Shown here piece after piece: positions 27,682-45,257 of a stretch of 45,497 bases of DNA. Source of the DNA: an uncultured Mediterraneibacter sp. (GTDB lineage: Bacteria; Bacillota; Clostridia; Lachnospirales; Lachnospiraceae); the NCBI GenBank assembly GCA_944376695.1, contig CALWDM010000016.1, forward strand, positions 1 through 45,497. The letters run 5' to 3'. A program made the translations under genes and the position numbers. The notes under the pieces are model-generated. The model saw only the letters and a program-made list of their open reading frames with translations. It had not been told where the DNA came from and searched no databases. Numbering within the stretch: position 1 is the stretch's first letter; each line of letters begins with the position of its first letter.

Positions 27682-27704
27682 TCCGGTAATTATTGACAGA
27701 CCCC

Positions 27705-27739: not shown

Positions 27740-27746
27740 ATATAAG

Positions 27747-27773: not shown

Positions 27774-27789
27774 GGAGGAGAATTGAGAT

Positions 27790-28440
27790 ATGGATAACAG
27801 TAATGTAGCATTCATTACAAAACTGGTCCTGGAAGCAGTTGAAAAGCAGAAATCCTCTGAGGGGGCAGGATACATGGTGCCGGTCGGAGTGTCCGCGAGA
27901 CATATCCACCTTACTCAGGAACATGTGGAAGCGCTGTTTGGCGAAGGACACCATCTGACACAAAAAAAAGAACTTATGGGCGGGCAGTTTGCAGCCAATG
28001 AGACAGTTACCGTCGTGGGGCTTAAGCTCCGCGCGATCGAGAATGTGAGAGTTCTGGGGCCGGTTAGAAAACAGACCCAGGTGGAAATTTCGGCTACAGA
28101 CGCGGTCCGTCTCGGGGTAAGCGCTCCCGTCAGGGAGTCCGGAAAAGTGGACGGCAGTGCTCCGATTGCGGTGGTAGGCCCAAAGGGAGCGATCTATCTT
28201 GAAGAAGGATGTATCATCGCAATGCGTCACATACATATGTCTCCGAGAGATGCCGCGGCAGCCGGAGTACACGACGGCGATATTGTTTCGGTGAAAGCGG
28301 ACAACGAAAGAGGAACAATATTCAATCATGTTAAGATCCGCGTGGATGACAGCTTTACCCTTGAGATGCATATTGATACAGACGAGGCGAATGCTGCAAA
28401 GATTGCGACCGGCGACACAGTGAGGATAATATCATGCTGA
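27790..28440 (+). CDS. pduL: Phosphate propanoyltransferase PduL with N-terminal encapsulation peptide
   Basis: The 216-residue microcompartment phosphotransacylase converts acyl-CoA and phosphate to acyl-phosphate and CoA. Zinc-binding histidines are visible in SARHIHLT (near residue 40) and MRHIHMSP (near 149), one in each duplicated beta-barrel. The N-terminal helix NSNVAFITKLVLEAVEKQ is an encapsulation peptide. Its job is to recycle CoA inside the shell and send acyl-phosphate out for ATP synthesis by an acetate/propionate-type kinase, which is not encoded in this window. Confidence 0.94.
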   Translation: MDNSNVAFITKLVLEAVEKQKSSEGAGYMVPVGVSARHIHLTQEHVEALFGEGHHLTQKKELMGGQFAANETVTVVGLKLRAIENVRVLGPVRKQTQVEISATDAVRLGVSAPVRESGKVDGSAPIAVVGPKGAIYLEEGCIIAMRHIHMSPRDAAAAGVHDGDIVSVKADNERGTIFNHVKIRVDDSFTLEMHIDTDEANAAKIATGDTVRIISC

Positions 28441-28700
28441 TAGGAAAAGTTGTTGGAAGCGTTGTTTCGACACGCAAATGTGAAAATTTGACTGGCAATA
28501 AATTCATGATCGTGGAAGTTCTGGAGCACATGCATTCCGGTGCAAAGCAGCTCATCGCCATCGATAAGATCGGCGCGGGCATCGGCGAATACGTGCTTGT
28601 GGCGCAGGGCAGTGCGGCGAGGATCGGCAGCGGAATGCCTGACTCGCCTGTTGATGCGGCGATCGTAGGAATTATTGACGACGGATCAGGACTGGAGTAG
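28434..28700 (+). CDS. BMC-P pentameric vertex protein (EutN/CcmL family)
   Basis: The 88-residue protein matches the vertex-capping family: MLIGKVVGSVVSTRKCENLTG, the middle segment KQLIAIDKIGAGIGEYVLVAQGSAAR and the C-terminal VDAAIVGIID. It closes the twelve vertices of the shell. Its ATG overlaps the pduL stop by 7 bp, indicating coupled translation. It is the only BMC-P in the locus. Confidence 0.93.
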   Translation: MLIGKVVGSVVSTRKCENLTGNKFMIVEVLEHMHSGAKQLIAIDKIGAGIGEYVLVAQGSAARIGSGMPDSPVDAAIVGIIDDGSGLE

Positions 28701-28707
28701 TGGAATT

Positions 28708-30054: not shown

Positions 30055-30595
30055 GGCAATTGGAATGGTAGAATATAAGACTGTTTCAGCGGGCATCACC
30101 GCGGCAGACGCCATGGTGAAGACCTCTGAAGTCAGCATAATCGAAGCTCAGACAGTATGTCCGGGCAAATATATTGCGATCATTACAGGTGACTTGAGCG
30201 CCGTAAAAGCAGCAGTGGACAATGCCAGAGAACTGCACGGCTTTCATCTGATCGGCAGTTTTGTGCTTGGGAACCCGCATGAATCTATTTTCCCTGCGAT
30301 TTATGGCGCGGCACAGATCGAGGATGTATCCGCTTTGGGTATTTTTGAGACATACGATGCGTCTTCCATTATTGTTGCGGCTGATGAAGCGGCAAAGACA
30401 GCGATCGTAGACCTGATTGAGCTGCGTATCGCAAGAGGTATGTGCGGAAAATCATACATGATCCTGACGGGGGAAGTGGCTGCTGTGGAAGCGGCGATTG
30501 AGCGGGCAAAGGAAGCGGTGAAGGACAGGGGAATGTTCCTCGATTCTTCCGTTATCGCTCACCCGGACGCGCGGATCCGCGATGCGATTTTATAA
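30047..30595 (+). CDS. pduT: PduT-type tandem BMC-T shell protein with Fe-S pore cysteine
   Basis: The 182-residue protein contains two BMC domains in tandem (about 1-90 and 95-182), forming trimers that tile like hexamers. Cys38 in the segment AQTVCPGKY corresponds to the cysteine that in PduT holds a [4Fe-4S] cluster at the three-fold pore. It overlaps pduS by 8 bp, a coupling that fits a joint electron conduit. It is the only BMC-T protein seen in the locus; no PduB-type trimer is present. Confidence 0.92.
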   Translation: MSKAIGMVEYKTVSAGITAADAMVKTSEVSIIEAQTVCPGKYIAIITGDLSAVKAAVDNARELHGFHLIGSFVLGNPHESIFPAIYGAAQIEDVSALGIFETYDASSIIVAADEAAKTAIVDLIELRIARGMCGKSYMILTGEVAAVEAAIERAKEAVKDRGMFLDSSVIAHPDARIRDAIL

Positions 30596-30717
30596 TATGC
30601 TATAAGACAGACAGGCTCTCCCCTGCTTATCCCTGCGTCACAGCGGCATGACGAAACTGCCGGAAACTGAGCAGAGCGGCCGGAGGGCCTGTTTTGGCAT
30701 AAACAGGAGGCAGTGAT

Positions 30718-31488
30718 ATGCTTGCGATAGAGAGACGAAATGAAATCCTGGAAAAACTGCAGACAGACAGAAGAGTTGTAGTAAGCGAACTGAGCCAGAT
30801 CTATGACGTTTCTGAGGAGACGATCCGAAGGGATCTGGAAAAACTGGTAAATGACGGTTATGCCATCAAGAGCTACGGCGGCGCCGTTATCAATGAAAAT
30901 ATCAATATTGAGCTTCCGTTTAATATTCGCAAAAATCGCAATATCGTGGGGAAACAGATCATTGCTGACCTGATAAGCAGAGTCGTACAGGACGGGGACA
31001 GCATTATGCTGGATGCCAGCTCCACTGCAGTATATATTGCGAAGACACTGCAGGAGAAAGGAAAAAAGAATCTGACGGTAATCACAAACTCCATGGAGAT
31101 CATCATAGAATTATTTGATGTCCAGGACTGGCATATATTGTCCACCGGGGGAACTTCAAGAGTCGGTTCGTTTGCTTTGGTGGGTCCTCAGACGGACAAG
31201 GTGCTCAGAACATATCATGTGGATAAAGCGATTATATCCTGCAAGGGACTGGATATCTCAGCAGGCTTTACAGATTCTGATGAGCTTCATGCAAATAATA
31301 AAGCGACTATGCTGGCGGCGGCTAAGGAAAAGATACTTGCCATTGACAGCAGTAAATTTGATAAGATAGCATTTACGGAGATTGGTTCTCTGGAGGACCT
31401 TACCATGGTGGTCACGGATGAGAAACCAGAGGAACGGTGGCTCCGGATATTGAAAGATTCAGGCGTGGAGTGTATTTATCCTGAATAA
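30718..31488 (+). CDS. DeoR-family transcriptional regulator
   Basis: The 256-residue regulator has an N-terminal winged helix (about 1-60; RRNEILEKLQTDRRVVVSELSQ, VSEETIRRDLEKL) and a C-terminal DeoR sensor domain (about 75-235) with the phosphosugar-binding segments DASSTAVYIAKTL, VITNSMEI and STGGTSR. Such regulators respond to sugar phosphates. Its place between the shell genes and the iron alcohol dehydrogenase suggests that it controls the microcompartment operon, perhaps through the palindrome at 22038-22055. The ATG at 30718 follows AGGAGG. Confidence 0.85.
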   Translation: MLAIERRNEILEKLQTDRRVVVSELSQIYDVSEETIRRDLEKLVNDGYAIKSYGGAVINENINIELPFNIRKNRNIVGKQIIADLISRVVQDGDSIMLDASSTAVYIAKTLQEKGKKNLTVITNSMEIIIELFDVQDWHILSTGGTSRVGSFALVGPQTDKVLRTYHVDKAIISCKGLDISAGFTDSDELHANNKATMLAAAKEKILAIDSSKFDKIAFTEIGSLEDLTMVVTDEKPEERWLRILKDSGVECIYPE

Positions 31489-31500
31489 AGAGAGGATACT

Positions 31501-32646
31501 ATGAAGAGTTTTGATATTAAAACAAGAATTTATTTTGGAGATCAGGCGCTTGACCGACTGACGGAGATACCTTATCAGAGGGTATTGGTTGTGACAGATC
31601 CGTTTATTGCGCAGGGGAGCATGATCGACCTTGTGACAGAACCGTTAAGCAGAGGAAATAAAGAGTTTGAGATATTCAAGGATGTTGTGCCGGATCCTCC
31701 CATCGAAAAGATCAGTGAGGGTGTAAAGAAAATGCTTGAATATAAGCCGGATGTAATTGTTGCAGTCGGTGGAGGCTCCGCCATTGATTCATCAAAATCA
31801 ATCCGTGAATTTGCACTGCGTGTTGATCACTACGCTGAGGTAGGACTGATCGCGATACCGACCACAAGCGGAACCGGATCGGAAGTGACATCTTTTGCAG
31901 TTGTGACTGATCCGAAAGAGCAGGTGAAGTACCCGCTGGTATCCAGAACCATGATGCCGGATGAGGCAATCCTTGATGCGGAGCTGGTAAAGAGTGTTCC
32001 GCCTGCCGTTACAGCAGATACGGGAATGGATGTGTTTACCCATGCTCTTGAGGCGTGTGTCAGCATAAACCGTAACGATTTCTCTACGGCGCTGGCAGAG
32101 AAAGCCATTGAAATATGCGGAGTATTCCTTCTGAGAGCATATTTGGACGGGAGCGACACTCACGCGCGCCAGAAGATGCATTCCGCATCCTGCCTGGCGG
32201 GACTGGCATTTAACTGCGCATCACTGGGACTGAATCATGGAATGGCTCATCAGCTTGGCGCTACGTTCCATATTCCTCACGGAAGAGCGAACGCTATGCT
32301 TTTGCCGCATATCATTGAATTTAACAGTGATATTAACAAACACAGCAAGAGCCGTACAGAATACTTTCCGGCTGTGAAGCGGTATTCTACAGTGGCGCAG
32401 ATCCTCGGGCTGAGCAGTTATAATAAGATTATGACAGTAAGATCTCTGGTAAACTGGGTACAGTTTATGTTAAAAGAGATGGATATTCCGCTGTCTATTT
32501 CTCAGATGGGTACGATATCCGAAGATGAGTACTTTAAAGCAATTGACCACATGGCTGATGCTGCGCTTGAGGATGCGTGTACTGCGACCAATCCGAGAGT
32601 GCCGAGCAAGGCGGATGTAGTCCGGATATATAAAGAACTATGGTAA
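31501..32646 (+). CDS. Iron-containing alcohol dehydrogenase (PduQ/FucO-like)
   Basis: The 381-residue group III alcohol dehydrogenase has the NAD-binding GGGSAIDSSKS (about residue 91), TTSGTGSEVT and metal ligands in the segments DVFTHALEA, LNHGMAHQLG and IPHGRANAM. It would interconvert lactaldehyde and 1,2-propanediol or propanal and propanol with NADH. Unlike the zinc ADH it has no encapsulation-type helix, so it may act outside the shell or enter bound to the aldehyde dehydrogenase, as reported for PduQ. It lies 12 bp after the DeoR gene and ends at a strong terminator. Confidence 0.88.
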   Translation: MKSFDIKTRIYFGDQALDRLTEIPYQRVLVVTDPFIAQGSMIDLVTEPLSRGNKEFEIFKDVVPDPPIEKISEGVKKMLEYKPDVIVAVGGGSAIDSSKSIREFALRVDHYAEVGLIAIPTTSGTGSEVTSFAVVTDPKEQVKYPLVSRTMMPDEAILDAELVKSVPPAVTADTGMDVFTHALEACVSINRNDFSTALAEKAIEICGVFLLRAYLDGSDTHARQKMHSASCLAGLAFNCASLGLNHGMAHQLGATFHIPHGRANAMLLPHIIEFNSDINKHSKSRTEYFPAVKRYSTVAQILGLSSYNKIMTVRSLVNWVQFMLKEMDIPLSISQMGTISEDEYFKAIDHMADAALEDACTATNPRVPSKADVVRIYKELW

Positions 32647-33435: not shown

Positions 33436-34524
33436 ATGAGAGAATATATTTTGGAACACTTGGAACGATATCCTATGATGGAGATTCCCGATGTGGTAAA
33501 GCTGCTGTACCAAAGTGAATTTGGGGGCGGGCACATAATAAAGGATCCTGAATCCAGTCTGAAAAGACTGGAGCGGGAGTGCCGGGAGTATGCCGGTGAA
33601 AGGAATCCTCTTAAATGGGAGAGAATCGGCAATTATATGGGACGGCTTTTTCTGGGAGGAGTCACGGATCATCTCAGCCTTGAGACGGTGAATCGTCTTT
33701 TTGTAAACACAGCCCAGAAGGTGAATTCCAGCCCGGAGGCTCTTGAAAAAAAGCTGGCGCAGCTTATGCAGATGTCTGAACAGGAAAGCATTCCTTTCGG
33801 ATATGAGGAGCTGAAAACATGGCTTGACGGCTACCGTGCCAAAGGGTATCCGCTGATTCATCATTCGGATGTCTACAGAAAGCTCTACCATCCGTCTTAC
33901 AGAGTCATCAGTGAGGATTACCTCTTATACCTGAGTCTGTTTGAGGCGGTTGACCGGGGACTGAAAAAAAAGAGCCCTCTCGTCATTGCAGTCGATGGCC
34001 GCTGCGGAAGCGGGAAGAGCTGGATCGCAAGACTTCTGTCTGGAGTTTATCCAAGCTCTGTCATTCACATGGATCACTTCTTTTTGAGACCGGTCCAGAG
34101 AACCGAGGACAGGCTGAAAGAACCCGGGGGAAACATTGATTATGAGCGCTTTATGGATGAGGTCATAAAGCCGCTGAAAGCAGGAAAGAGTGTGTTTGAT
34201 TATCAGCGCTATGATTGTGCGACCGGCGGCTTTTCTGGCCGGATCCGCGTCCGAAAGCGGGATCTGGTCATAGTCGAAGGCACGTATAGCTGTCACCCTC
34301 TTTTTTGCAGCTGCTATGATATGAAGGTGTTTTCGGATATTGGGCCGAAAAGACAGAAAGAACGCATATTAAAGCGAAATGGAGCTCACATGCTACGCCG
34401 ATTTATTGATGAGTGGATTCCGAAAGAGGAGATTTATTTCGACACATTTCGGATAAAAGAAATATGTGACCTTGTTTTAGAAGAAAACAAACAGAGCCTC
34501 GTGCAGCCGGGAACTACGGAGTGA
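33436..34524 (+). CDS. Two-domain protein: unknown N-terminal domain plus uridine-kinase-like P-loop kinase
   Basis: The 362-residue protein has an N-terminal helical domain (about 1-175, with DVVKLLYQSEFGGGHII) that I cannot assign. The C-terminal kinase has Walker A GRCGSGKSW (about residue 191), the DHFFLRP segment with the acceptor-binding aspartate, GGNIDYERF and a Walker B-like VIVEGTYS. It belongs to the uridine kinase/phosphoribulokinase superfamily, but the substrate is unknown. It follows the ECF S component by 34 bp, suggesting coupled import and phosphorylation. Its 3' end overlaps the convergent lacI gene by 11 bp. Confidence 0.75.
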   Translation: MREYILEHLERYPMMEIPDVVKLLYQSEFGGGHIIKDPESSLKRLERECREYAGERNPLKWERIGNYMGRLFLGGVTDHLSLETVNRLFVNTAQKVNSSPEALEKKLAQLMQMSEQESIPFGYEELKTWLDGYRAKGYPLIHHSDVYRKLYHPSYRVISEDYLLYLSLFEAVDRGLKKKSPLVIAVDGRCGSGKSWIARLLSGVYPSSVIHMDHFFLRPVQRTEDRLKEPGGNIDYERFMDEVIKPLKAGKSVFDYQRYDCATGGFSGRIRVRKRDLVIVEGTYSCHPLFCSCYDMKVFSDIGPKRQKERILKRNGAHMLRRFIDEWIPKEEIYFDTFRIKEICDLVLEENKQSLVQPGTTE

Positions 34525-35542
34525 GACGGGGCTCTGCGCATGTCTCGCGCCACACAATGGAAAATGGCAGATTGATCTTCATATGCAGGCGGTGTCCGCC
34601 CTCGATTCTGTCAATCAGAATTTTGGCCGCGGTTTTTCCCATTTCTTCGATCGGAATATGTACGGTCGTAAGCAGAGGGGTGATGTACTGGACGACATCA
34701 ATATCATCAATGCCGATCACGGACACATCTTTTGGGATGCGCACCTTGTTTTCCTGAAGTGCGCGTATGGTACCTATGGCTGTAGTGTCATTGGAGCAGA
34801 AGATGGCGGTGAAGTCCCGGCTCTTCTTGAGCAGCCGGAGCGTGCCCTGGTATCCGCCCTCTGTAGTCATGGGAGAGTTTACGACAAACTCACGTCTTAA
34901 GGGCAGTCTTTTAGCGGAAAGAGCAGCGCAGTATCCCTCATATCTGTTTTCGTCCCGTGTTTCTCCAATGTACGCAATTCGCGTGTGCCCGATCTCAAAC
35001 AGTTTTTCCATAATAGAGACGGCTGCCTGATACCCGTCGCAGATGACCTGATCATATTTTGCATTCAGCGTGTTTAGTCCGCTGTACACTACATAATTAA
35101 AATGTTTTTTCAGGAAGCTGAGCATCTGCCGGTTACACCGGCCGAGAACCGCGACTCCGTCCACCTGATTTTCCGTGATAAGACGAAATACAGCAGGGTT
35201 GTCTATGTCGAGGAAGGTGATCAGGTGTTTCACTATATAATTGTGATGAAACGCCTCTTCTTCGATCCCCCTTGCCAGAGTAGAGAAGAAGATATCTTTC
35301 ATCGGATCTTCTGAGCGTGCAAAGATACAGGCGATGGAGCGGGTCGGCTTTTTTGAAGACCTGCTGTTTCCTGTTTTCAGATCCCGGGCGGCCGCGTTTG
35401 GGGAATATCCGGTTCTGCGGACGATCTCCCATATTTTATCCTGAACTTCTTTGCTGGCTGCGGAAGCGCCTTTCTGATTAATCACTCTTGATACGGTGGA
35501 GATAGATACACCGGCTTCTTTTGCAATATCTTTTAAAGTCAT
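34514..35542 (-). CDS. LacI-family transcriptional regulator
   Basis: The 342-residue repressor has an N-terminal helix-turn-helix MTLKDIAKEAGVSISTVSRVIN with hinge helix (about 1-60) and a periplasmic-binding-like effector domain (about 75-335; CSNDTTAIGTIRAL, VIGIDDIDVVQYITP). It is divergent from the pfk-to-nagA operon and most likely controls it through the AAACGTTTG site at 35657. The ATG at 35542 is preferred over 35569 because AGAGG lies 6 bp before it and it matches the family start. The inducer is unknown. Confidence 0.87.
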   Translation of the reverse strand: MTLKDIAKEAGVSISTVSRVINQKGASAASKEVQDKIWEIVRRTGYSPNAAARDLKTGNSRSSKKPTRSIACIFARSEDPMKDIFFSTLARGIEEEAFHHNYIVKHLITFLDIDNPAVFRLITENQVDGVAVLGRCNRQMLSFLKKHFNYVVYSGLNTLNAKYDQVICDGYQAAVSIMEKLFEIGHTRIAYIGETRDENRYEGYCAALSAKRLPLRREFVVNSPMTTEGGYQGTLRLLKKSRDFTAIFCSNDTTAIGTIRALQENKVRIPKDVSVIGIDDIDVVQYITPLLTTVHIPIEEMGKTAAKILIDRIEGGHRLHMKINLPFSIVWRETCAEPRLTP

Positions 35543-35597
35543 ATTATCCTCTTTCGTGATACATTTCATGTTTTGTTAAAAATTAGACATAAAAAGA

Positions 35598-35634
35598 GAT
35601 TAGATATATTTTATATTATAAAATATATCTAATC
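35598..35634. repeat. 37-bp perfect AT-rich palindrome
   Basis: Arms of 18 bp (35598-35615 and 35617-35634) are exact reverse complements around a single central T, beginning GATTAGATATATTTTA. It lies between lacI and the divergent operon and could be an operator, a cruciform or a structured 5' leader of lacI. Confidence 0.85.
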
Positions 35635-35656
35635 AAAAAACCAGAAATATCGGTGA

Positions 35657-35665
35657 AAACGTTTG
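35657..35665. promoter_or_regulatory. LacI-type operator candidate of the divergent operon
   Basis: AAACGTTTG within GTGAAAACGTTTGGG, with the same core as 32712-32721. It lies about 40 bp upstream of the extended -10 at 35697-35705. Confidence 0.5.
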
Positions 35666-35696
35666 GGTAAATAATAAACTGCATAAATTTTCTTTG

Positions 35697-35705
35697 TGTT
35701 ATTAT
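35697..35705 (+). promoter_or_regulatory. Extended -10 of the pfk-nagA operon
   Basis: TGTTATTAT at 35697-35705 fits TGnTAtnaT without a clear -35 hexamer. The leader to the GTG start is about 30 nt. Confidence 0.4.
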
Positions 35706-35742
35706 AGAGAAAAGATAAGAAACATACAAAGGAGGGGCGTGT

Positions 35743-36927
35743 GTGAAAGATAATGTACTCGTCATTCATGGGGGAGGCCCCACACCGGTGATTAACTCAT
35801 CCCTATATGGCGTGATAAAACAGGCGGAGGAGAGCGGCCGGATAGGAAAGGTGTACGGTGCGCTCGGCGGAACTGCGGGAGTGTTGAAAGAAGATTTTCT
35901 CGATCTGCTGCAGATTCCGGAAAAGGAGCGAAAGCTTCTGCTGAGGACGCCGGCTTCGGTAATTGGATCTTCCCGGTTTGCTCTGGAGGAGGAAGATTAC
36001 TCCATAATGCCCCATATATTTAGAAAATATGGGATACGATACGTGCTTCTTAACGGCGGGAACGGTACGATGGATACCTGTGGAAGGATCAGCCGTGCAT
36101 GCGGTGGAGATATTAAGGTAGTAGGAATTCCCAAAACGATTGACAATGATATTGCAGTGACAGACCACACTCCGGGATACGGCAGCGCAGCTCGATATCT
36201 GGCGGGAACGGTCCATGAAGTGGGAGAGGATGTCAGATCCCTGCCTATCCATGTATGCATCGTCGAAGCAATGGGGCGAAATGCCGGATGGCTGACAGCT
36301 TCAGCAGCCCTTGCAAGGAAGAAAAAAGGGGATGCTCCTCATTTGATTTATCTGCCGGAAAGACCGTTTAATGAAGAAGGATTTTTAAAAGACGTAAAAG
36401 AACTGTATGATAAGCAGGGACAGGCTGTGGTCGTAGTAAGCGAAGGGCTGAAAAATGAAAAAGGAAGTCCTGTGGCAGAGCCGATCTACAAAACAGAACG
36501 GGCAGTCTATTATGGAGATGTAGGAGCATACCTTGCGAATCTGGTTGTGCGCAGACTTGGCATCAAAGCCCGGAGCGAAAAGCCTGGAATCTGTGGAAGG
36601 GCATCTGTGCCGTGGCAGTCAAAGACAGACTGTGATGAGGCTGTCCTTGCAGGCCGGGAGGCGCTGCGCGCCGCTATGGAAGGGGAGAGCGGCATTATGA
36701 TTGGACTCAGAAGAAAAGAAAATACTGACGGAACATATCAAGCAGAGACGTTCCGCATTCCTATAGAAGAAGTCATGATGCATGAAAAAACCTTGCCGGA
36801 TGAATATATCAATGCGAAAGGCAACGATATCACTGAGGCATTTGTCCGCTGGTGCCGTCCGCTGACCGGAGAAGGAGTTCCTGAGTTTCTGAGCCTGGAC
36901 AAATATGAAAAGGAGAAGAAAAGATGA
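35743..36927 (+). CDS. 6-phosphofructokinase-family kinase, divergent
   Basis: The 394-residue PfkA-superfamily protein has VIHGGGPTPVINSSLYG (glycine-rich donor loop), GGNGTMDT (near residue 107), the catalytic PKTIDND (near 131) and EAMGRNAGW (near 171). The lysine in PKTIDND is typical of PPi-dependent or group III enzymes, whereas the glycine in GGNG resembles ATP-type enzymes, so donor use is unclear. It begins with GTG at 35743 behind AAAGGAGGGG. As first gene of an operon with NagB-, aldolase- and TIM-like genes, it should phosphorylate C1 of a ketohexose 6-phosphate or an analogue. Confidence 0.82.
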   Translation: MKDNVLVIHGGGPTPVINSSLYGVIKQAEESGRIGKVYGALGGTAGVLKEDFLDLLQIPEKERKLLLRTPASVIGSSRFALEEEDYSIMPHIFRKYGIRYVLLNGGNGTMDTCGRISRACGGDIKVVGIPKTIDNDIAVTDHTPGYGSAARYLAGTVHEVGEDVRSLPIHVCIVEAMGRNAGWLTASAALARKKKGDAPHLIYLPERPFNEEGFLKDVKELYDKQGQAVVVVSEGLKNEKGSPVAEPIYKTERAVYYGDVGAYLANLVVRRLGIKARSEKPGICGRASVPWQSKTDCDEAVLAGREALRAAMEGESGIMIGLRRKENTDGTYQAETFRIPIEEVMMHEKTLPDEYINAKGNDITEAFVRWCRPLTGEGVPEFLSLDKYEKEKKR

Positions 36928-37778
36928 AGCATATATGTCTGAATTTAAAGAGGTTCGATGTTCCGGGAAGATTTGGAGGAGTCAACGGCATTGCCCCTGT
37001 AGCTGAATGGGGAGCATATATCGTGCATCAGACGGAAAAGATCCTGCGGTCTTACGACAGTGGAAAGGCTAAGTTTACTATGTATTTTCCCGAAGCCCAT
37101 ATACTGGGAGCGTCGGCAGCGTTAAGCGCTGACAGCCCTATCCGTATCGGATGTCAGGGCGTGTATCGTGAGAATACAGCTGCAGGCGGAAATTTCGGAG
37201 CATTTACCACCAACCGGCCAGCCAGCGCCGCCAAAGCGCTTGGCTGCAGCAGTGTCATCATCGGACATTGTGAGGAGCGCAGGGATAAGGCCGGCATTAT
37301 GGAAATGGGAGGGGCAGCCAAATCTGAAGCTCTCAACCGTATATTAAACAGAGAGATCCGAGCTGCTGTATCGGAAGGGCTGGACGTACTTTACTGCATC
37401 GGAGAGACAGAGGCAGAACAGCCCTGTTGGAAAGAAGTGCTGGAAGAGCAGCTCCTGATCGGACTTGAAGGGGTGGATAAAGACCGGATTGTGATTGCAT
37501 ATGAGCCTGTGTGGGCCATCGGCCCGGGGAAGACGCCTCCCGGGCGTGACTATATTGTGAAAATTGCTGAATATGTAAAAACTATAACAGGGGGAATGGA
37601 TGTTATATATGGGGGAGGACTAAAGCAGGACAATGCGGGAATGCTGGCAACAATTCCCGAGATTGACGGAGGGCTGATCGCCCTGACCAGATTTGATGGA
37701 GAGATTGGCTTCTACCCAGATGAATATCTGGATATCATCCGGATCTATTTGGAAAACTGTGGTGGACATCTATCATAG
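36924..37778 (+). CDS. Triosephosphate isomerase-like protein, divergent
   Basis: The 284-residue TIM-family protein is longer than the usual 250. Catalytic positions appear retained: Asn/Lys in CLNLKRFD, His in IIGHCEERR and Glu in AYEPVWAIGPGKTP. The phosphate-gripping loops differ: GGG instead of GGS in YGGGLKQDNA, and GGLIALTRFDG where TIM has GALVGGASL. The last change recalls tetrulose-phosphate isomerases of the EryH type. It may isomerise a triose or tetrose other than GAP. It overlaps the PFK-like gene by 4 bp (ATGA). Confidence 0.75.
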   Translation: MKHICLNLKRFDVPGRFGGVNGIAPVAEWGAYIVHQTEKILRSYDSGKAKFTMYFPEAHILGASAALSADSPIRIGCQGVYRENTAAGGNFGAFTTNRPASAAKALGCSSVIIGHCEERRDKAGIMEMGGAAKSEALNRILNREIRAAVSEGLDVLYCIGETEAEQPCWKEVLEEQLLIGLEGVDKDRIVIAYEPVWAIGPGKTPPGRDYIVKIAEYVKTITGGMDVIYGGGLKQDNAGMLATIPEIDGGLIALTRFDGEIGFYPDEYLDIIRIYLENCGGHLS

Positions 37779-37811
37779 GGGCGACAGAAAAACCGGAGAG
37801 GAAGGTAAAAT

Positions 37812-39299
37812 ATGAGATTAGATTTTGAATATGGACATGGAACAGTAAGTGCAGAGCTTCCGGACAATACGGATGTCTTTATTCCGGGTGTGACAGTGCC
37901 GGATCCGCCTTATATTCCTGAAGAAGAGCTGGAGGAAAAGACGCTGGAATCCATTCGCAATCCCATAGGGATGGAGCCGCTGTCGGCTCTGGCCAAAAAA
38001 GGATCGAAGGTGACGATCGTATTTCCGGACCGTGTAAAAGGAGGAGAGCAGCCTACGTCACACAGAAAAGTGTCTATCAGGCTGATCCTGCAAGAATTAT
38101 ATGCCGCCGGAGTAGAAAAAAAGGATATCCTGCTGATCTGCTCTAACGGGCTGCACAGGAAAAATACGGAAAAAGAAATATACAATATTCTCGGGAAAGA
38201 GCTGTTTCATGAGTTCTGGTATACTCACCAGATCATCAATCACGACAGTGAAGATTATGAACACCTTGTAGACCTGGGGACAACAGACAGAGGGGATCCG
38301 GTGATCATGAACAAATACGTTTATGACAGTGACGTAGCGGTTCTCATAGGACATACTCAGGGGAATCCATATGGCGGATATTCGGGCGGCTACAAGCACT
38401 GTGCAACAGGGATCACCCACTGGAGGTCGATCGCGTCCCACCATGTGCCGGAGGTCATGCACCGGAAAGATTTCACCCCGGTCAGCGGCAAATCTCTGAT
38501 GCGCACAAAGTTTGATGAGATCGGCATGCACATGGAAAAGTGTATGGGCAAAAAGTTTTTCTGCTGTGATGCAGTGCTGGATACAAAATCCCGTCAGATT
38601 GAGATTAACAGCGGCTATGCTGCAGAGATGCAGCCCCGCTCATGGAAAATGGCGGATAAGAGGACTTATGTACCGTGGGCGAAGCAGAAATATGATGTTA
38701 TGGTATTCGGAATGCCCCAGTTTTTCCACTATGGAGACGGAATGGGAACGAATCCGATCATGCTGATGCAGGCCATATCTGCCCAGGTTATCCGACACAA
38801 AAGAATCATGAAAGATAACTGTGTTATCATCTGTACATCTGCCTGTAACGGATATTTTCATGATGAATTGTGGCCTTATCTGAGGGAATGCTACGAGATG
38901 TTCCAAAAAGATGGGATGAATGTACTGACAGATATGAACCGGTACGGAGAATATTTTGCCACAAATGAGGAGTATATACGCAAATATCGGTTCTGCAATG
39001 CCTTTCATCCTTTCCACGGATTTTCCATGATGAGCTGTGGACAGATCGCGGAAATGAACACGGCGGCAATCTATCTGTGCGGTGCGGAGCAGCCCGGATA
39101 TGCACGTGGAATGGGGCTTAAAACACGGGCAACGATAGAGGAGGCTCTGGAGGATGCGAAGAAGAAATATGTGGGAGAGAGTCCTTCCATACTCGCTCTT
39201 CCCCAGACCTTTAAGCTGAGCGCGGTGCATCTGATGCTGGAAAACGAGACTTATGGAAGAGAGGAAGATTACATGCATATGGTGCATCATCATATGTAA
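37812..39299 (+). CDS. LarA-family (nickel-pincer racemase/epimerase-like) protein
   Basis: The 495-residue protein is a lactate-racemase superfamily member, longer than LarA (about 424). Recognisable landmarks are the segment SNGLHRKNTEKE (His matching LarA His108), GGYSGGYKHCATG (Lys matching the cofactor-binding Lys184) and SIASHH (His matching His200). The second catalytic base, His174 in PHFFAGFSGG of LarA, aligns with Asn in GNPYGGYSGG. Family members racemise or epimerise 2-hydroxy acids using a nickel-pincer nucleotide made by LarB, LarC and LarE, none of which is encoded here. The substrate is unknown; the changed residue suggests altered chemistry. The His-rich C-terminus HMVHHHM may bind metal. 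Confidence 0.75.
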   Translation: MRLDFEYGHGTVSAELPDNTDVFIPGVTVPDPPYIPEEELEEKTLESIRNPIGMEPLSALAKKGSKVTIVFPDRVKGGEQPTSHRKVSIRLILQELYAAGVEKKDILLICSNGLHRKNTEKEIYNILGKELFHEFWYTHQIINHDSEDYEHLVDLGTTDRGDPVIMNKYVYDSDVAVLIGHTQGNPYGGYSGGYKHCATGITHWRSIASHHVPEVMHRKDFTPVSGKSLMRTKFDEIGMHMEKCMGKKFFCCDAVLDTKSRQIEINSGYAAEMQPRSWKMADKRTYVPWAKQKYDVMVFGMPQFFHYGDGMGTNPIMLMQAISAQVIRHKRIMKDNCVIICTSACNGYFHDELWPYLRECYEMFQKDGMNVLTDMNRYGEYFATNEEYIRKYRFCNAFHPFHGFSMMSCGQIAEMNTAAIYLCGAEQPGYARGMGLKTRATIEEALEDAKKKYVGESPSILALPQTFKLSAVHLMLENETYGREEDYMHMVHHHM

Positions 39300-39357
39300 T
39301 ACATGCGGTAATTATGGCGCAGTTGGATCATACAGGAGAAAGGGAGGAGGCATAAGT

Positions 39358-40158
39358 GTGAAAAAGAACAAAGGATTAAAAGAAAAAAGAGACATTATAG
39401 GGAAAATACCAAACTGGGGATGGCTGCTGTTATCCCTCTTAGCTGCAATTGTGCTGTGGTATTTCCTATCTATAAATCCGTCAACAGCCCGCAGCTTTCC
39501 GTTTATAGCATCGATCGTGGAAGCGTGCAGAACGATGGTGGAAAGAGGAGTTCTGTGGCAGGATTTTTCGAGCAGCATGATTTCTGTGGTTCTGGGGTTT
39601 GTTCTCGGATTTGTGACTGCGGTGCCGGTAGCGTTTCTGATGGCGTGGTACCGGCCGGTCAGATACATTGTTGAACCGTGGATCCAGTTTATCCGTAATA
39701 TTCCGCCACTGGCGTATGTCCCCCTTGTTGTTATTTCCGCGGGAGTAGGCAGGAGACCTCAGGTGATCGTCATCTGGCTCGCCACATTCCTTATCATGAG
39801 CGTGACGATCTATCAGGGCGTGCGCAACGTTGACGAGACGCTGATAAAAGCGGCGAGGGTGCTGGGAGCCCAGGACAGGGACATCCTGGTGAAGGTGATA
39901 TTCCCGGCTACGACTCCGTTTATCATAACAGCCGTAAGGCTTGGCGTCAGCGTTGCCCTGACCACACTGATTGCAGCCGAGTCAACCGGGGCCGTGGCTG
40001 GACTGGGAATGAGGATCCGATCTTTGAATAACAGTTTTGAAGTTGCGCCTATGCTGCTTTACATAATACTGATAGGAATTATTGGTATGACTTGCGAAAA
40101 AGTAATTAAGATTCTTGAAAGGAAGCTGACGGGATGGCAGGAGAAGAGAGAAGTATAA
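39358..40158 (+). CDS. ABC transporter permease, nitrate/taurine (SsuC/TauC) type
   Basis: The 266-residue permease has about six membrane helices and the EAA-like coupling loop AARVLGAQDRDILVKVIFPATTPFI, typical of BPD_transp_1 permeases of the SsuC/TauC family. It starts with GTG at 39358 behind GGGAGGAGG; an upstream in-frame ATG would add an unlikely Cys-rich segment. It overlaps the ATPase gene by 25 bp. Family substrates include sulfonates, nitrate, bicarbonate and thiamine precursors. Confidence 0.88.
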   Translation: MKKNKGLKEKRDIIGKIPNWGWLLLSLLAAIVLWYFLSINPSTARSFPFIASIVEACRTMVERGVLWQDFSSSMISVVLGFVLGFVTAVPVAFLMAWYRPVRYIVEPWIQFIRNIPPLAYVPLVVISAGVGRRPQVIVIWLATFLIMSVTIYQGVRNVDETLIKAARVLGAQDRDILVKVIFPATTPFIITAVRLGVSVALTTLIAAESTGAVAGLGMRIRSLNNSFEVAPMLLYIILIGIIGMTCEKVIKILERKLTGWQEKREV

Positions 40159-40925
40159 AAGTAAAAATAGACCATGTGGAAAAAATCTTCGAAACCAAGA
40201 AGGGATCCGTGGTAGCTTTAAATGGAGTAGATCTGGATATAAAGGAAAATGAATTTATATGTGTAGTGGGACCGTCAGGGTGCGGGAAATCAACGCTTCT
40301 CAACATAATAGCCGGTCTGCTGCCCGCAACAGGCGGATCCGTGTATGTGGATGGGAATAAAGTAGAAGGAACAGGCACAGAACGGGGAGTTGTATTTCAG
40401 CAGTATGCTCTCTTCCCCTGGCTGACTGTTATAAAAAATGTTATGTTCGGGCTGAAGCTAAAGGGCATGAATAAGGCAGATGCCCAGGAGACCGCTATGA
40501 AATATCTGAAAAAGGTGGGACTGGAAGAATTCGCAGACAGTTATCCGAAGGAATTGTCGGGAGGAATGAAGCAGCGTGTGGCAATCGCGCGTGCGTATGC
40601 GGTCCAGCCGGAAGTGCTTCTGATGGATGAGCCGTTCGGCGCTCTGGATGCCCAGACGAGGACACAGCTTCAGTCAGAACTGCTCCAGACATGGGAAAAT
40701 GAGAGGAAGACATGCTTCTTTATAACCCATGACGTAGAAGAAGCCATCATCCTTGCGACGAGGGTGGTGATTATGAGCGCAAGGCCGGGACGGATCCGGG
40801 ATATTGTAGAGATTGACATTCCCTATCCGAGAGATCAGGAAACAAAGATGAGCCCCCGGTTCATGGAGCTAAAAAATTACATATGGAAACAGGTATATCA
40901 GGAATATCTGGAAGTGCGTAAGTAA
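40134..40925 (+). CDS. ABC transporter ATPase, nitrate/taurine (SsuB/TauB) type
   Basis: The 263-residue ATPase carries Walker A GPSGCGKST (about residue 46), the Q-loop VVFQQYALFPWL, the signature LSGGMKQRV, Walker B VLLMDEPFGALDA and the switch histidine FFITHDVEEAI. The sequence around the Q-loop and the C-terminal SARPGRIRDIVEIDIPYPRD are characteristic of NitT/TauT-family ATPases. It energises import by the adjacent permease and binding protein. Confidence 0.92.
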   Translation: MAGEERSIKVKIDHVEKIFETKKGSVVALNGVDLDIKENEFICVVGPSGCGKSTLLNIIAGLLPATGGSVYVDGNKVEGTGTERGVVFQQYALFPWLTVIKNVMFGLKLKGMNKADAQETAMKYLKKVGLEEFADSYPKELSGGMKQRVAIARAYAVQPEVLLMDEPFGALDAQTRTQLQSELLQTWENERKTCFFITHDVEEAIILATRVVIMSARPGRIRDIVEIDIPYPRDQETKMSPRFMELKNYIWKQVYQEYLEVRK

Positions 40926-40972
40926 TGGCAGAAAAAGCCATTCAAATATTAATATTCAAAGGAGGAAAAATT

Positions 40973-41995
40973 ATGATCAAAAAGTTTTTGGCAGCAGGAC
41001 TTGCAGCAGCAATGATGGTATCATTGGCTGCATGCGGAGGTTCAGGTGACTCAAAGGGGAACGCAGCGGACAGTACAGATAAGGGTACAGAGGAAAAAAT
41101 CACTCTCAATGTTGCATATATGCCGAACTATGGCAGCCTCTGGTCAGTAATGACGGCGATGGAGAAGGGGTATTTTGAGGAAGAAGGCATTGAGGTAAAG
41201 CTCACAGAATTCCAAGACGGACCTATGATTATTTCCGCAATGGAATCCGGTACCATCGATATCGGTTACATCGGGCAGGGAGCACATAAGCTCTGCCTTG
41301 AGGGTAATGCAACGATCTTTGCACTCTCCCATATCTCCAACGGAGACGCTGTGATCGGAGGACCGGGAATTGAATCCATTGAAGATCTGGCAGGAAAGAC
41401 AGTCGCATATTCATCAGGTACATCCAGTCAGGATATACTTGAAAATGCACTTGCAAGCGCCGGAATGACAATGGATGATATCCAGGCAACAGACATGGCT
41501 GCTGAGAATATCCCGACAGCAATGATATCCGGAAGCGTTGACGCGGCAGCTACATGGTCTCCGGGGACTCTTACAATACTAGATGAGGCAGACGGAACAA
41601 CGAAACTCTGTGACAACATGACGTTCAAAGATACAACGATCTCACTGGCAAGCTGGATTTGTACGCCTTCCTACGCAGAGGAGAACAGGGATCTCTTAGT
41701 GAAGTTCACAAGAGCGCTGTTTAAAGGAATGGACTATGCGGCAGATGATAACTATGACGAAGTGGCCCAGTGGGTTGCTGACCAGACAGCTACAGATTAT
41801 GATACTGTATACAGCCAGAGAGGTGATGCAGACTGGCTGACAGGCAAGGAGGTTTCCGAAGGGGCTGCGGATGGTACAGTAGAGGGCTACTATACAACAC
41901 AAAAGAAAAATCTGATCGACCAGGGAGCGGTTACAGGAGATCCGGCGGTTACAGATTATGTGATGCTTGACATTATGACAGAAGCAGGAAAATAA
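40973..41995 (+). CDS. ABC transporter substrate-binding lipoprotein, SsuA/TauA type
   Basis: The 340-residue lipoprotein has a signal peptide MIKKFLAAGLAAAMMVSLAAC with its lipobox cysteine, then a short Gly/Ser/Asp linker and a NitT/TauT-type binding fold: VAYMPNYGSLWSVMTAMEKGYFEEEGIEVKL, SGTIDIGYIGQGAH and GKTVAYSSGTSSQDIL. It is probably specific for a small anionic or polar ligand. The ATG at 40973 follows AAGGAGG. A strong hairpin after the gene (42009-42036) may stabilise its mRNA, as is common for binding-protein genes. Confidence 0.9.
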   Translation: MIKKFLAAGLAAAMMVSLAACGGSGDSKGNAADSTDKGTEEKITLNVAYMPNYGSLWSVMTAMEKGYFEEEGIEVKLTEFQDGPMIISAMESGTIDIGYIGQGAHKLCLEGNATIFALSHISNGDAVIGGPGIESIEDLAGKTVAYSSGTSSQDILENALASAGMTMDDIQATDMAAENIPTAMISGSVDAAATWSPGTLTILDEADGTTKLCDNMTFKDTTISLASWICTPSYAEENRDLLVKFTRALFKGMDYAADDNYDEVAQWVADQTATDYDTVYSQRGDADWLTGKEVSEGAADGTVEGYYTTQKKNLIDQGAVTGDPAVTDYVMLDIMTEAGK

Positions 41996-42008
41996 AGTTT
42001 TTATGTGC

Positions 42009-42036
42009 AGCTCAGGATGCTCTGGCATCCTGAGCT
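42009..42036. repeat. 12-bp perfect hairpin after the binding-protein gene
   Basis: AGCTCAGGATGC and GCATCCTGAGCT enclose the tetraloop TCTG. The sequence after it is ATTTAAAC, not a full T-tract, so partial termination or mRNA stabilisation within the operon is likely. Confidence 0.75.
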
Positions 42037-42066
42037 ATTTAAACAAAGGGCAGGAGGCATAGTTTG

Positions 42067-42888
42067 ATGAAAGAATATTACTCATATGACAGAGAACAGC
42101 TTTTGAACAATGGACCGAAGCTGCCGCTTTTCTGTGAGAAGGACAATGAAACCGTATTCCGGAACATGGCGCGGCAGATGGTGGATGAGATCTGCGCAAA
42201 CAACAAAAAAGGGCAGAAAACAGTAATGATCTGCCCGGTGGGCCCGGTTGGACAGTATCCTTACTTTGTGGAGATGGTAAATGAGCAGAAGATCAGTCTG
42301 AAAAATGTATGGTTTATCAATATGGATGAATATCTGGATGATGACAGAAAATGGGTTCCTAAAGAACATCCGCTTAGTTTCAGGGGATTTATGGACCGCA
42401 GCGTTTATACAAAGATCAGCCCGGAGCTTGTAATGCCGGAAGAGCAGAGAGTCTTTCCCGATCCGGATGATCTGGAACGCATTCCCCGGCTGATCGAAGA
42501 ACTGGGAGGCGTGGACATTGCTTTCGGAGGGATTGGCATCAATGGTCATGTGGCGTTTAATGAAGCAGATCCTTCCCTGACGCCGGAGGAGTTTTGTGCA
42601 CAAAAGACGCGGGTGCTTGCGATCACGCCTGAAACGAGAACGGCCAACGCAATCGGAGATTTAAGCGGGGCGCTTGAAGATATGCCCCGGTACTGCGTTA
42701 CGATCGGGATATATGAAATATTCCGGGCAAGAAAGATCCGGCTTGGATGCTTCCGGAACTGGCACAGAGCAGTTGTGAGGCGGGCCGCCTATGGAGAGGA
42801 ATGTGCGGATTTTCCGGTTACACTTTTGCGGAAGCACCACGATATTACACTGTCATTTACGGAATATGTTGCCAGAACACAAGATTAG
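42067..42888 (+). CDS. NagB-family (glucosamine-6-phosphate deaminase/isomerase-like) protein
   Basis: The 273-residue protein has the NagB fold: the phosphate loop region CPVGPVGQYPYF, the catalytic NMDEYLDDD, GGIGINGHVAFNEADPS (ring-opening histidine and glutamate) and the C-terminal TIGIYEIFRARKIRL. NagB enzymes deaminate and isomerise a 2-amino-2-deoxyhexose 6-phosphate to a ketose 6-phosphate and ammonia. The usual GTG-type phosphate loop (CGGTP/GSTP) is replaced by PVGPVGQ, hinting at a different substrate group. A TTG at 42064 directly before the ATG is an alternative start. Confidence 0.8.
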   Translation: MKEYYSYDREQLLNNGPKLPLFCEKDNETVFRNMARQMVDEICANNKKGQKTVMICPVGPVGQYPYFVEMVNEQKISLKNVWFINMDEYLDDDRKWVPKEHPLSFRGFMDRSVYTKISPELVMPEEQRVFPDPDDLERIPRLIEELGGVDIAFGGIGINGHVAFNEADPSLTPEEFCAQKTRVLAITPETRTANAIGDLSGALEDMPRYCVTIGIYEIFRARKIRLGCFRNWHRAVVRRAAYGEECADFPVTLLRKHHDITLSFTEYVARTQD

Positions 42889-42903
42889 AAAGGGGATAGA
42901 CAA

Positions 42904-44058
42904 ATGCCTTTAGTACCATTAAGACCAGTCCTTGAATCGGCCGCAAAGAACGGCTTTGCACAGGGTGCATTCAATGTCAATGCAGTTGCCCAGGCAAAGG
43001 CGGTCATTGAGATCCACGAGACCTTCCGCTCCGCCGCAATCCTTCAGGGAGCAGACCTTGCCAACGGGTTCATGGGCGGGAGAATTGACTTTATGAATGC
43101 TTCTTTGGAGGATAAAATCGCAGGGGCGAAAAACATTGCCGATGCGGTAAAGAAATACGGAGAATCTTCCGAAATACCTATTGTACTGCACCTTGACCAT
43201 GGGAAGGATTTGGATTCCTGTAAAGCTGCCATCCAGGGGGGATACACCTCGGTCATGATCGACGGGTCGGCGCTGCCCTTTGAAGAAAATATGGAACTGA
43301 CAAGAGAGGTTGTCAAATACGCCCATGAAAGAGGCGTCAGCGTGGAAGGGGAACTGGGCGTTCTTGCCGGAGTGGAGGATCATGTGTTTTCCCAGGCTTC
43401 TACTTATACGAATCCTCTAAGCGCTGTGGAATTTATTAAAAAAACAGGGGTGGACGCTCTTGCAATCTCTTATGGGACAATGCATGGGGCATCCAAAGGA
43501 AAAGACGTAAGGCTCAGAAAAGAAATTCCAACAGCCATCAGTGAGTGTCTGGCATATGAGGGCATCTTCTGCGCTCTTGTGTCCCATGGCTCCTCCACAG
43601 TGCCCAGATACATCGTAGATGAGATAAACGCGTTGGGCGGGCAGCTTTCAGATACGGCGGGCATCTCCGCGGATGAGCTGAGGGCCGCCATTCCGTGTGG
43701 GATACGGAAGATCAACGTGGACACGGACATCCGGCTGGCAGTGACAAGGAACATGAAAGAGTTCTTCAATAAGTACCCGGAAAAGAGGACCAGCGGGACC
43801 ATCAGAGAGATATACGGACTGCTGGAGGCAAAGAAAGAACAGTTTGACCCGAGAGCATTTCTTGCGCCCATCATGCCGGCTGTCATGTACGGCGAAACAG
43901 ATGATGAGGATATAAAAGCCATTCTCAAGTGCGTTGAAAAAGGCGTGAAAGAGGCGGTGGGAACTCTGATCGTACAGTTCGGCTCCTACGGAAAAGCGCC
44001 GCTCTGCGAACAGATCAGTCTGGATGAAATGGCGCAGCGCTACAGAGAGATGGACTGA
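42904..44058 (+). CDS. Class II fructose-bisphosphate aldolase-family protein
   Basis: The 384-residue zinc aldolase is longer than GatY/KbaY (about 285). Metal and catalytic positions are visible: LHLDHGKD (aspartate and histidine), MIDGSALPFEENMELTREVV, EGELGVLAG, ISYGTMHGASKGKD, LVSHGSST and KINVDTDIRLA. It would cleave a ketose 1,6-bisphosphate or an analogue to DHAP and an aldehyde. It follows the NagB-like gene by 15 bp and precedes the NagA-like gene, so its substrate is presumably the product of the PFK-like kinase. Confidence 0.87.
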   Translation: MPLVPLRPVLESAAKNGFAQGAFNVNAVAQAKAVIEIHETFRSAAILQGADLANGFMGGRIDFMNASLEDKIAGAKNIADAVKKYGESSEIPIVLHLDHGKDLDSCKAAIQGGYTSVMIDGSALPFEENMELTREVVKYAHERGVSVEGELGVLAGVEDHVFSQASTYTNPLSAVEFIKKTGVDALAISYGTMHGASKGKDVRLRKEIPTAISECLAYEGIFCALVSHGSSTVPRYIVDEINALGGQLSDTAGISADELRAAIPCGIRKINVDTDIRLAVTRNMKEFFNKYPEKRTSGTIREIYGLLEAKKEQFDPRAFLAPIMPAVMYGETDDEDIKAILKCVEKGVKEAVGTLIVQFGSYGKAPLCEQISLDEMAQRYREMD

Positions 44059-44111
44059 TAAGACGAAATGAGAAACGGCATATCAGACAGATGTGACAGG
44101 AGGTGTGAAAC

Positions 44112-45257
44112 ATGCTGCTATTAAAAAACGCACAGACTTACCAGGAACACAGATTTTCCAAAAAGGACATCCTGATAAAGGATGGAAAGATCGAAGCAGT
44201 GACCGCGTGCGGGGTGCAGGACACTCAGGGCTGCAATGAGGTCATAGACTGCGAGGGAAAAAAGGCGGTCCCCGGCTTTATTGATATCCATACCCACGGA
44301 GGCGCGGGCGTAGATGTAAACGGAGCTACGGCCGAGGGGTATGAGAATATCAGCCGCTTCTTTGCATCCCAGGGAACCACTTCCTTTCTCATATCCATCC
44401 TGACAGATACACCGGAGCAGACTCTGTGGTGCATCCGGGAGTATAAGAAGTGGAAAAAGATGGAGCATAAAGGAGCGAAGATCGCGGGCATCCATCTGGA
44501 GGGCCCTTTCCTGGCATCCGCGTACAAGGGCGCCATGCCGGAACATCTGCTGAAAAAATCACCGGACATCGAGCTGCTCAGGAGCTATCAGGAGGCGGCT
44601 GGAGGAGAGATACGGTATATAACGGTTGCTCCGGAGCTGGCAGGGATGCCGGAGTTTATCCCGGAGCTAAAAAGGCTTGGGATGCAGGTGGCGATCGGAC
44701 ATTCCGGCGCGGACTATGAGACAGCGGTGCGGGCCATCGAAAACGGAGCCCACGCGGGTACCCATGTGGGAAATGCCATGAAACTGATGCATCAGCATTT
44801 TCCCGCCATATTCGGAGCCCTCCTGGAGTCAGACAAGGCATACTGCGAGGTGATATGCGACGGACGGCACCTTCATCCGGGAACGGTCCGCATCATCCTG
44901 AAAGCCAAGGGGACAGAGCGGGTCGTTGCGGTCACAGATTCCATCATGGCGGCAGGGCTGCCCGACGGAGAGTATAAGCTGGGGGTAAATGATGTGGTCG
45001 TTGAGGACGGCGATGCCAAACTGAAAAGCGATGGGACCCGGGCGGGGAGCACGCTCACGACTATCCAGGCCTACCGGAACCTGCTCAGGTTCACAGGCAG
45101 AACCGAGGAAGAGATCCTGCCCCTCCTCACAGAAAACCCGGCTGCGCTTATTGGTCTGGATGATGAGATCGGCAGCATCGAGAAGGGGAAATCAGCAGAT
45201 ATCCTTCTTCTGGATGAGCAGAACAATATCGACAGAGTGATCATAGCGGGAAAGTGA
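44112..45257 (+). CDS. nagA: N-acetylglucosamine-6-phosphate deacetylase-family amidohydrolase (NagA)
   Basis: The 381-residue amidohydrolase has PGFIDIHTHGGAG (metal motif), AGIHLEGPFLASAYKGAMP (metal glutamate), VAIGHSGAD, HAGTHVGNAMKLM (metal histidines), CDGRHLHPGT, the catalytic aspartate in AVTDSIMAAGLPDG and RAGSTLT. NagA removes acetate from N-acetyl amino sugar 6-phosphates. It is the last gene of the operon, behind AGGAGGTG. Together with the NagB-like enzyme it suggests that the substrate of the operon is an N-acetylated amino sugar or analogue, although no PTS or sugar kinase accompanies it. Confidence 0.9.
   Translation: MLLLKNAQTYQEHRFSKKDILIKDGKIEAVTACGVQDTQGCNEVIDCEGKKAVPGFIDIHTHGGAGVDVNGATAEGYENISRFFASQGTTSFLISILTDTPEQTLWCIREYKKWKKMEHKGAKIAGIHLEGPFLASAYKGAMPEHLLKKSPDIELLRSYQEAAGGEIRYITVAPELAGMPEFIPELKRLGMQVAIGHSGADYETAVRAIENGAHAGTHVGNAMKLMHQHFPAIFGALLESDKAYCEVICDGRHLHPGTVRIILKAKGTERVVAVTDSIMAAGLPDGEYKLGVNDVVVEDGDAKLKSDGTRAGSTLTTIQAYRNLLRFTGRTEEEILPLLTENPAALIGLDDEIGSIEKGKSADILLLDEQNNIDRVIIAGK

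Follow-up and report, generated by a model that had tools for sequence, protein, structure and literature searches.

A conserved operon with a single-histidine LarA homologue as a candidate glycolytic route for a C6-sulfated amino sugar in an uncultured Mediterraneibacter

The stretch of DNA analysed here (the window) is a 45,497-nucleotide contig from an uncultured Mediterraneibacter sp. of the Lachnospiraceae (CALWDM010000016.1, assembly GCA_944376695.1), and towards its end lies an operon of nine co-directional genes, pfk-tim-larA-tauCBA-nagB-fba-nagA, preceded by a divergent lacI gene (Table 1). All ten open reading frames (ORFs) were confirmed in place, and the family names given in the initial annotation hold in Pfam and NCBIfam searches. 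The gaps between successive longest ORFs are -4, +33, -47, -25, -1, +68, +15 and +53 nucleotides. Some starts can be refined: tauC probably begins at the GTG at 39358 rather than at 39253, with a Shine-Dalgarno-like AGGAGG upstream, which makes the larA-tauC gap +58; the lipoprotein probably starts near 40973, as judged by eye; and nagB starts at TTG 42064 or ATG 42067. Between lacI and pfk lies a candidate operator region, in which we take TGAAAACGTTTG to be a LacI-type motif.

Table 1. Features of the larA operon and its regulator (positions in the window)
Feature	Position	Strand	Basis
LacI-family regulator, divergent	34514..35569	-	Family searches; lacI-type match in larA loci
Candidate operator, lacI-pfk intergenic: 37-base AT-rich palindrome and TGAAAACGTTTG motif	35598-35634; 35654-35665	.	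Read by eye
Pyrophosphate (PPi)-type phosphofructokinase (PFK) paralogue (PF00365), suggested to phosphorylate the ketose at C1	35743..36927	+	Family searches, alignment
Triosephosphate isomerase (TIM)-like protein (PF00121), Lys/His/Glu triad intact, phosphate loops 7 and 8 replaced (GGG, ALTRF)	36924..37778	+	
LarA homologue (PF09861 N-terminal domain), single-histidine His115/Asn185 subfamily	37812..39299	+	Alignment; PMC12611868
TauC/SsuC-type permease	39358..40158 (longest ORF from 39253)	+	Family searches
TauB/SsuB-type ATPase	40134..40925	+	Family searches
SsuA/TauA-type substrate-binding lipoprotein (NMT1)	40925..41995	+	Family, sequence and fold matches
NagB-like isomerase-deaminase with substitutions in the phosphate loop and at the R172 position	42064..42888	+	NCBIfam, alignment
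Class II aldolase paralogue (PF01116), long form	42904..44058	+	Family searches, alignment
NagA-like deacetylase, H(Q/M)HxPA in place of HREPG-type motif	44112..45257	+	Family searches, alignment

The NagB-like protein has no Pfam match at E ≤ 0.001 and reaches 97 bits in NCBIfam, under the model cut-off of 236.9, its identity resting also on alignment, and the best NCBIfam model for LarA is LarAH14/15/16, with a score far under the cut-off. A second, ordinary TIM is encoded on another contig of the same genome (327 bits, compared with 113.5 for the operon copy); thus the operon TIM is a paralogue, the divergent copy that the initial annotation had supposed. Neither a phosphotransferase system (PTS) nor a C6 kinase was found in the window operon, as had also been noted.

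To a large extent, this gene set travels with larA. A LarA protein scan of the genome collection returned 269 relatives, and the best 80 loci, to which all counts out of 80 refer, were kept with flanks of at most 10 kb per side, 58 of them spanning 20 kb or more. As controls we used 40 stretches of 20 kb at hand-picked places in eight genomes, six that have larA (30 stretches) and two without it that belong to the window's genus (G409 and G415; 10 stretches). With family profiles whose seed sequences came from these loci themselves, pfk was found in 63/80 larA loci and 0/40 controls, tim in 74/80 and 1/40, fba in 56/80 and 0/40, nagA in 42/80 and 0/40, and nagB in 41/80 and 1/40. The corresponding values for the transporter were 34/80 and 0/40 (tauC), 33/80 and 0/40 (tauA), and 45/80 and 12/40 (tauB), and a lacI-type gene was present in 55/80 loci and 3/40 controls. 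The initial annotation had proposed a search for the gene set in other genomes and named lack of conservation in relatives as grounds for rejecting its idea; instead, conservation far beyond the controls is confirmed, with pfk, tim, fba, nagA and nagB all recurring around larA. A further scan of 398 genomes of the phylum gave eight matches, our own included, and among the seven distant loci, whose LarA proteins are 48-68% identical, pfk, tim and fba each occur in five. A KbaY-like count (54/80) was dropped because that family overlaps with fba, and loose counts of substrate-binding proteins and PTS genes were not used as evidence. A DUF3842 protein of ~140-150 residues is encoded near larA in seven loci (L079:7113-7577 and six others).

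The enzymes of these loci share a pattern of residue changes. In an alignment of 40 NagB-like proteins, the window's included, the TGGT phosphate loop has become VG-deletion-P (VG--P) in all 40, the position of Escherichia coli Arg172 is Ile in 38 and that of Lys208 is Arg in 39, while the catalytic motifs MDEY and GHVAFNE are retained. All 41 aligned NagA-like proteins have His where HREPG has Arg, preceded by Gln in 32 and Met in 9, and the metal and catalytic motifs HLEGPF, GHS, TH..NAM and TDSI are kept; for these NagB and NagA residues we assume the catalytic and phosphate-binding roles named here. All 21 aligned TIM-like proteins share Lys9, His115 and Glu194, with GGG in loop 7 rather than the usual GGS (Gly at the place of S211) and ALTRF in loop 8 rather than VGGAS. 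Phosphoglucose isomerase (PGI)-like proteins also occur in larA loci, and 16 of their sequences carry AKnFeTLEP at the position of SKTFTT, which we take to be the usual phosphate loop of PGI. An ordinary TIM and an ordinary NagB, found once each in control stretches of related genomes, retain the usual loops. To judge from these alignments, four unrelated folds (NagB, NagA, TIM and PGI-like) appear to have kept their catalytic motifs and lost their phosphate ligands. Changes near the sugar pocket of PFK and aldolase could not be assigned to C6.

We give somewhat better than even credence to the reading that the operon encodes Embden-Meyerhof-Parnas (EMP)-type catabolism of an N-acetylhexosamine in which a sulfur oxyanion (X) replaces the phosphate at C6, the likeliest sugar being N-acetylglucosamine (GlcNAc)-6-O-sulfate from mucin or glycosaminoglycans. 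The TauABC-type transporter would import the sugar, the NagA-like protein would deacetylate it, and the NagB-like protein would deaminate and isomerise the product to fructose-6-X. Next, the PPi-type PFK would phosphorylate C1, and the aldolase would cleave the product into dihydroxyacetone phosphate (DHAP) and a C3 X-triose, either glyceraldehyde-3-sulfate or, if X is a sulfonate, sulfolactaldehyde. The triose would then be processed by the TIM-like protein and LarA, and the sulfur product exported, in some relatives probably via TauE/SafE. The operon would thus share folds, catalytic motifs and order of chemistry with the NagA/NagB pathway for GlcNAc-6-phosphate, but its phosphate ligands are replaced, it has no phosphorylating importer and, unlike that pathway, it includes a dedicated PFK, aldolase and TIM. 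One co-directional, conserved unit supports the complete amino-sugar route suggested in the initial annotation, and its idea of a non-phosphate anionic group at C6 gains support from the replaced phosphate ligands of NagB, NagA and TIM.

The importer and the exporters of related loci point to sulfur. The best matches of the binding protein in the PDB, by sequence and by fold, are taurine- and alkanesulfonate-binding proteins (TauA, SsuA), followed at lower rank by binders of thiamine precursors, nitrate and bicarbonate. TauE/SafE exporter genes were found in 20/80 larA loci and 0/40 controls (Fisher p 1.6e-4, kinship ignored) and in 4/7 distant loci, two of which served as profile seeds; our own genome has one strong TauE match, on another contig. 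Sulfonate-type import and TauE near many relatives thus add to the case for a non-phosphate group. Two chemoreceptors were seen within larA loci, one beside the operon that joins a signalling domain to an NMT1-type binding domain (L045:19881-21488) and another at L044:11613-13730.

Among described pathways, the operon seems nearest in logic to sulfo-EMP2, although we do not claim identity with it. According to PMC9594981, SqiK (PF00365) and SqiA (PF01116) belong to the same two families as the window's PFK and aldolase. As in our reading of the operon, a PfkA-family kinase there phosphorylates C1 of a ketose whose C6 group is not phosphate, and a class II aldolase follows, with DHAP and a sulfo-triose as the predicted products. 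By family, the window's PFK and aldolase are candidates for these two steps. TauE and ABC importers, as in larA loci, also occur in a related sulfoglycolytic cluster, where the TauE permeases have been put forward as sulfolactate exporters (PMC8873060). The window differs in its NagA/NagB amino-sugar entry, its TIM-like and LarA-like tail and its PPi-type PFK, and neither a sulfoquinovosidase, SqvD, an SqvB/YihR mutarotase nor a sulfolactaldehyde dehydrogenase or reductase was identified among its ten proteins.

These parallels, together with the SsuA/TauA type of the importer, are what favours a sulfonate at C6, in which case a sulfoquinovosamine-type sugar would follow the same steps to sulfolactaldehyde, as in sulfoglycolysis. 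We nevertheless regard this variant as unlikely. Besides the missing sulfolactaldehyde redox enzyme, the sulfoquinovose marker SqvB (PF16161) has a match in 22/41 larA genomes and none in 19/41, the match in our own genome is marginal (29.8 vs 28.7 bits), and in the three genomes where the distance to larA could be measured it is ~468 kb (G468), 239 kb (G502) and 1.58 Mb (G494). On the same grounds of absence and remoteness, sulfoquinovose itself was rejected as the substrate. Loci of the Lacrimispora type place sulfatases with no visible signal peptide alongside fba-tim-larA, accompanied in several cases by a radical SAM protein resembling the anaerobic sulfatase-maturating enzyme, LarC, a ketohexokinase and TauE, and this adjacency is suggestive of sulfate esters. 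To our knowledge, no abundant 6-sulfo-hexosamine sulfonate has been described from the gut. GlcNAc-6-sulfate, in contrast, is a mucin sugar for which 6-sulfo-GlcNAcases are known and which Bifidobacterium bifidum releases unused, so that X is most likely an O-sulfate. Of the example offered in the initial annotation, a C6 sulfonate, the sulfur group stands, with an O-sulfate fitting at least as well as the sulfonate.

Related loci vary at the head of the proposed pathway and are most constant in tim-larA. A PGI-like isomerase is present in 19/80 larA loci and 0/40 controls; isomerases of the SIS/AgaS type (6/80 vs 1/40) and of the phosphomannose isomerase (PMI) type (3/80 and 2/7 distant loci vs 0/40, seeds included) are too few to establish enrichment, and Pfam support for the latter is marginal in L007 and absent in L108. 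Each alternative isomerase would yield a ketohexose, in our reading a ketohexose-6-X. The C1 kinase may likewise be PFK or, in 6/80 loci, a ketohexokinase-family protein (PF25270), whose gene lies by larA in Lacrimispora-type loci without a visible pfk. At L109:8061-13223, tim-larA adjoins two aldolases of the dihydrodipicolinate synthase family with no pfk or fba match, an arrangement that suggests an Entner-Doudoroff-like entry into the same C3 tail. Also near larA are an aldose-1-epimerase in 15/80 loci and a FucI-family gene in 7/80, so that beyond the window the contrast with sulfo-EMP2 is less sharp. The initial annotation gave LarA no role; the steady pairing of larA with tim points to the C3 product as the substrate of both.

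A number of observations weigh against sulfur-based glycolysis as set out above. The counts come from the top 80 of 269 loci, many of them closely related, and are therefore not independent; the control set is also small. TauE is missing from 60/80 loci and from the window operon, and sulfatases are not enriched (12/80 vs 3/40 controls, p 0.38), so that we do not count them as proof of an O-sulfate; no gene settles X as sulfate over sulfonate. Among the genes conserved across larA loci, no redox enzyme for an aldehyde stood out, and 16 of the 58 long loci have none of the four entry isomerases. NCBIfam assigns the NagA-like protein to GlcNAc-6-phosphate deacetylases (294 vs a cut-off of 225.65 bits) and the PFK to PPi-fructose-6-phosphate enzymes (409 vs 273). 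NagB, moreover, retains a cation at the Lys208 place (Arg, 39/40), and PFK and aldolase retain several Arg, which makes binding of a C6 phosphate possible there.

The curated cut-offs exceeded by NagA and PFK would also be expected if the operon were an ordinary or slightly modified pathway for GlcNAc-6-phosphate and glucosamine (GlcN)-6-phosphate whose enzymes merely bind phosphate differently, and a PTS gene does lie near larA in some relatives (cluster c22, 6 loci). We find this distinctly unlikely, given that four folds have lost phosphate ligands in parallel, that the operon combines a sulfonate-binding type of importer with no detected PTS or C6 kinase, and that an ordinary TIM is encoded elsewhere in the genome. 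Another anionic or polar C6 group, as in hexosaminuronates or a 6-phosphonate, seems to us very improbable. A carboxylate would make C5-C6 an alpha-hydroxy acid, the known class of LarA substrates (PMC7583248), but such groups would leave TauE exporters and sulfonate-type importers without a clear function, and the second catalytic His found in the racemases is missing from this LarA.

The window LarA is an ortholog of the solved proteins LarA_Bw (9q2u) and LarA_Sp (9q3j), with 894 and 854 bits. The accessible text of PMC12611868 describes their single-histidine subfamily as of unknown function, reports no detectable lactate racemisation by LarA_Sp, which was loaded with the nickel-pincer nucleotide (NPN) upon co-expression whereas LarA_Bw was apo, and proposes a role in carbohydrate metabolism from gene context, the larA neighbours in B. 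wexlerae being glycolysis-like and including TIM, aldolase and glucosamine-6-phosphate isomerase. That text gives no substrate or pathway, and in it we found no mention of TauE, sulfonate, loss of phosphate ligands or hosts without LarB, LarC and LarE (LarBCE). The window protein belongs to this subfamily: it shares the catalytic His115, Asn185 in place of the second His, Lys195 and the nickel ligand His211, and across the window and 79 of the 80 loci D73, K76, H115, N185, K195, H211 and H306 are identical in 80/80 rows, 14 of them from hosts without LarC. Residues for NPN binding are thus retained in the alignment, and all five distant LarA sequences examined, of seven fetched, keep the single-histidine set. 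L112 additionally encodes a second, distant LarA-like protein (L112:490-1767) in which the position of Asn185 is His and Ser lies opposite the nickel ligand His211, in a region where the alignment is unsure.

Strong purifying selection acts on larA. Its ratio of nonsynonymous to synonymous divergence (dN/dS) between the window and L002 is 0.017, the lowest of nine genes, and with L003 it is 0.027, second among eight genes to tauB at 0.024; with L005, dS is saturated and gives no ratio, and the dN of larA is the lowest of nine. With Asn185 in place of the second His, LarA is unlikely to be an ordinary alpha-hydroxy acid racemase, and because it is paired with tim under any entry isomerase, an upstream sugar epimerase is also unlikely.

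A more specific but quite improbable proposal is that the TIM-like protein enolises the sulfo-triose, with elimination of sulfate or sulfite to methylglyoxal, and that LarA converts methylglyoxal hydrate to D-lactate. LarA would then be an NPN-dependent glyoxalase using its one His as base and then acid, with hydride transfer via the nickel-pincer cofactor through pyruvate and reduced cofactor, and lineages without LarBCE would scavenge the cofactor from neighbours or replace it. This variant would account for the tim-larA pairing, the missing redox enzymes and the lost histidine. In literature titles and the beginnings of abstracts, we found nothing on LarA with methylglyoxal or on deamination of GlcN-6-sulfate.

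The genes for cofactor synthesis are distributed unevenly. Our own genome has no LarB, LarC or LarE above cut-off, LarC lacking any match. Among 58 genomes of the genus, six, ours included, carry this larA, and LarC is matched in none of these six, two of which are only 83% and 89% complete, versus 36 of the 52 others; in 55 further larA genomes LarC is present in 41 and has no match in 14. LarB and LarE were searched in 26 larA genomes: all six from the genus, ten from the set of 14 lacking LarC, and ten that have it (G455-G458 fall outside this set and may overlap the genus set). Both exceed the cut-off in the same 11 genomes, 10 of which also have LarC, the other being G308, and in 15 genomes, ours included, none of the three proteins does, with weak sub-threshold matches to related families. 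On a tree of 48 LarA proteins, LarC absence requires seven changes, at least six of them forced by well-supported branches. Since the absence also recurs in L017, L058, L063 and L079, which are not labelled as metagenome-assembled genomes, an assembly artefact is unlikely. LarC lies near larA in some other lineages (Lacrimispora), which speaks for cofactor use there. Lineages without LarBCE either obtain the cofactor from outside or have a LarA that works without it.

Upstream in the window, 18067-32646 holds a microcompartment-type deoxysugar locus with genes for a rhamnulokinase, a class II aldolase, an acylating aldehyde dehydrogenase, an RnfC/PduS-like protein and a lactaldehyde-reductase-like alcohol dehydrogenase, and with an ORF at 30038-30595 that, read by eye, resembles a microcompartment shell protein.

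Our analysis thus partly supports the initial annotation, the substrate and reactions being predicted from gene content and residues. The ecological setting appears favourable, as 6-sulfo-GlcNAcases set free GlcNAc-6-sulfate in the gut (PMC11659886 and PMC11186840), and B. bifidum, according to the review PMC11186840, frees it from sulfated mucin O-glycans without assimilating it, leaving the free sugar on offer. Our literature search, mostly below full-text level, found no pathway that degrades GlcNAc-6-sulfate with its sulfate retained. If our reading is true, glycolysis on a sulfated sugar could explain who consumes this free GlcNAc-6-sulfate. LarBCE is missing time and again where LarA is strongly conserved, which raises the question of cofactor sharing or of an NPN-free LarA. 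More broadly, the operon supplies a pathway context and candidate substrates for a LarA subfamily that already has solved structures.

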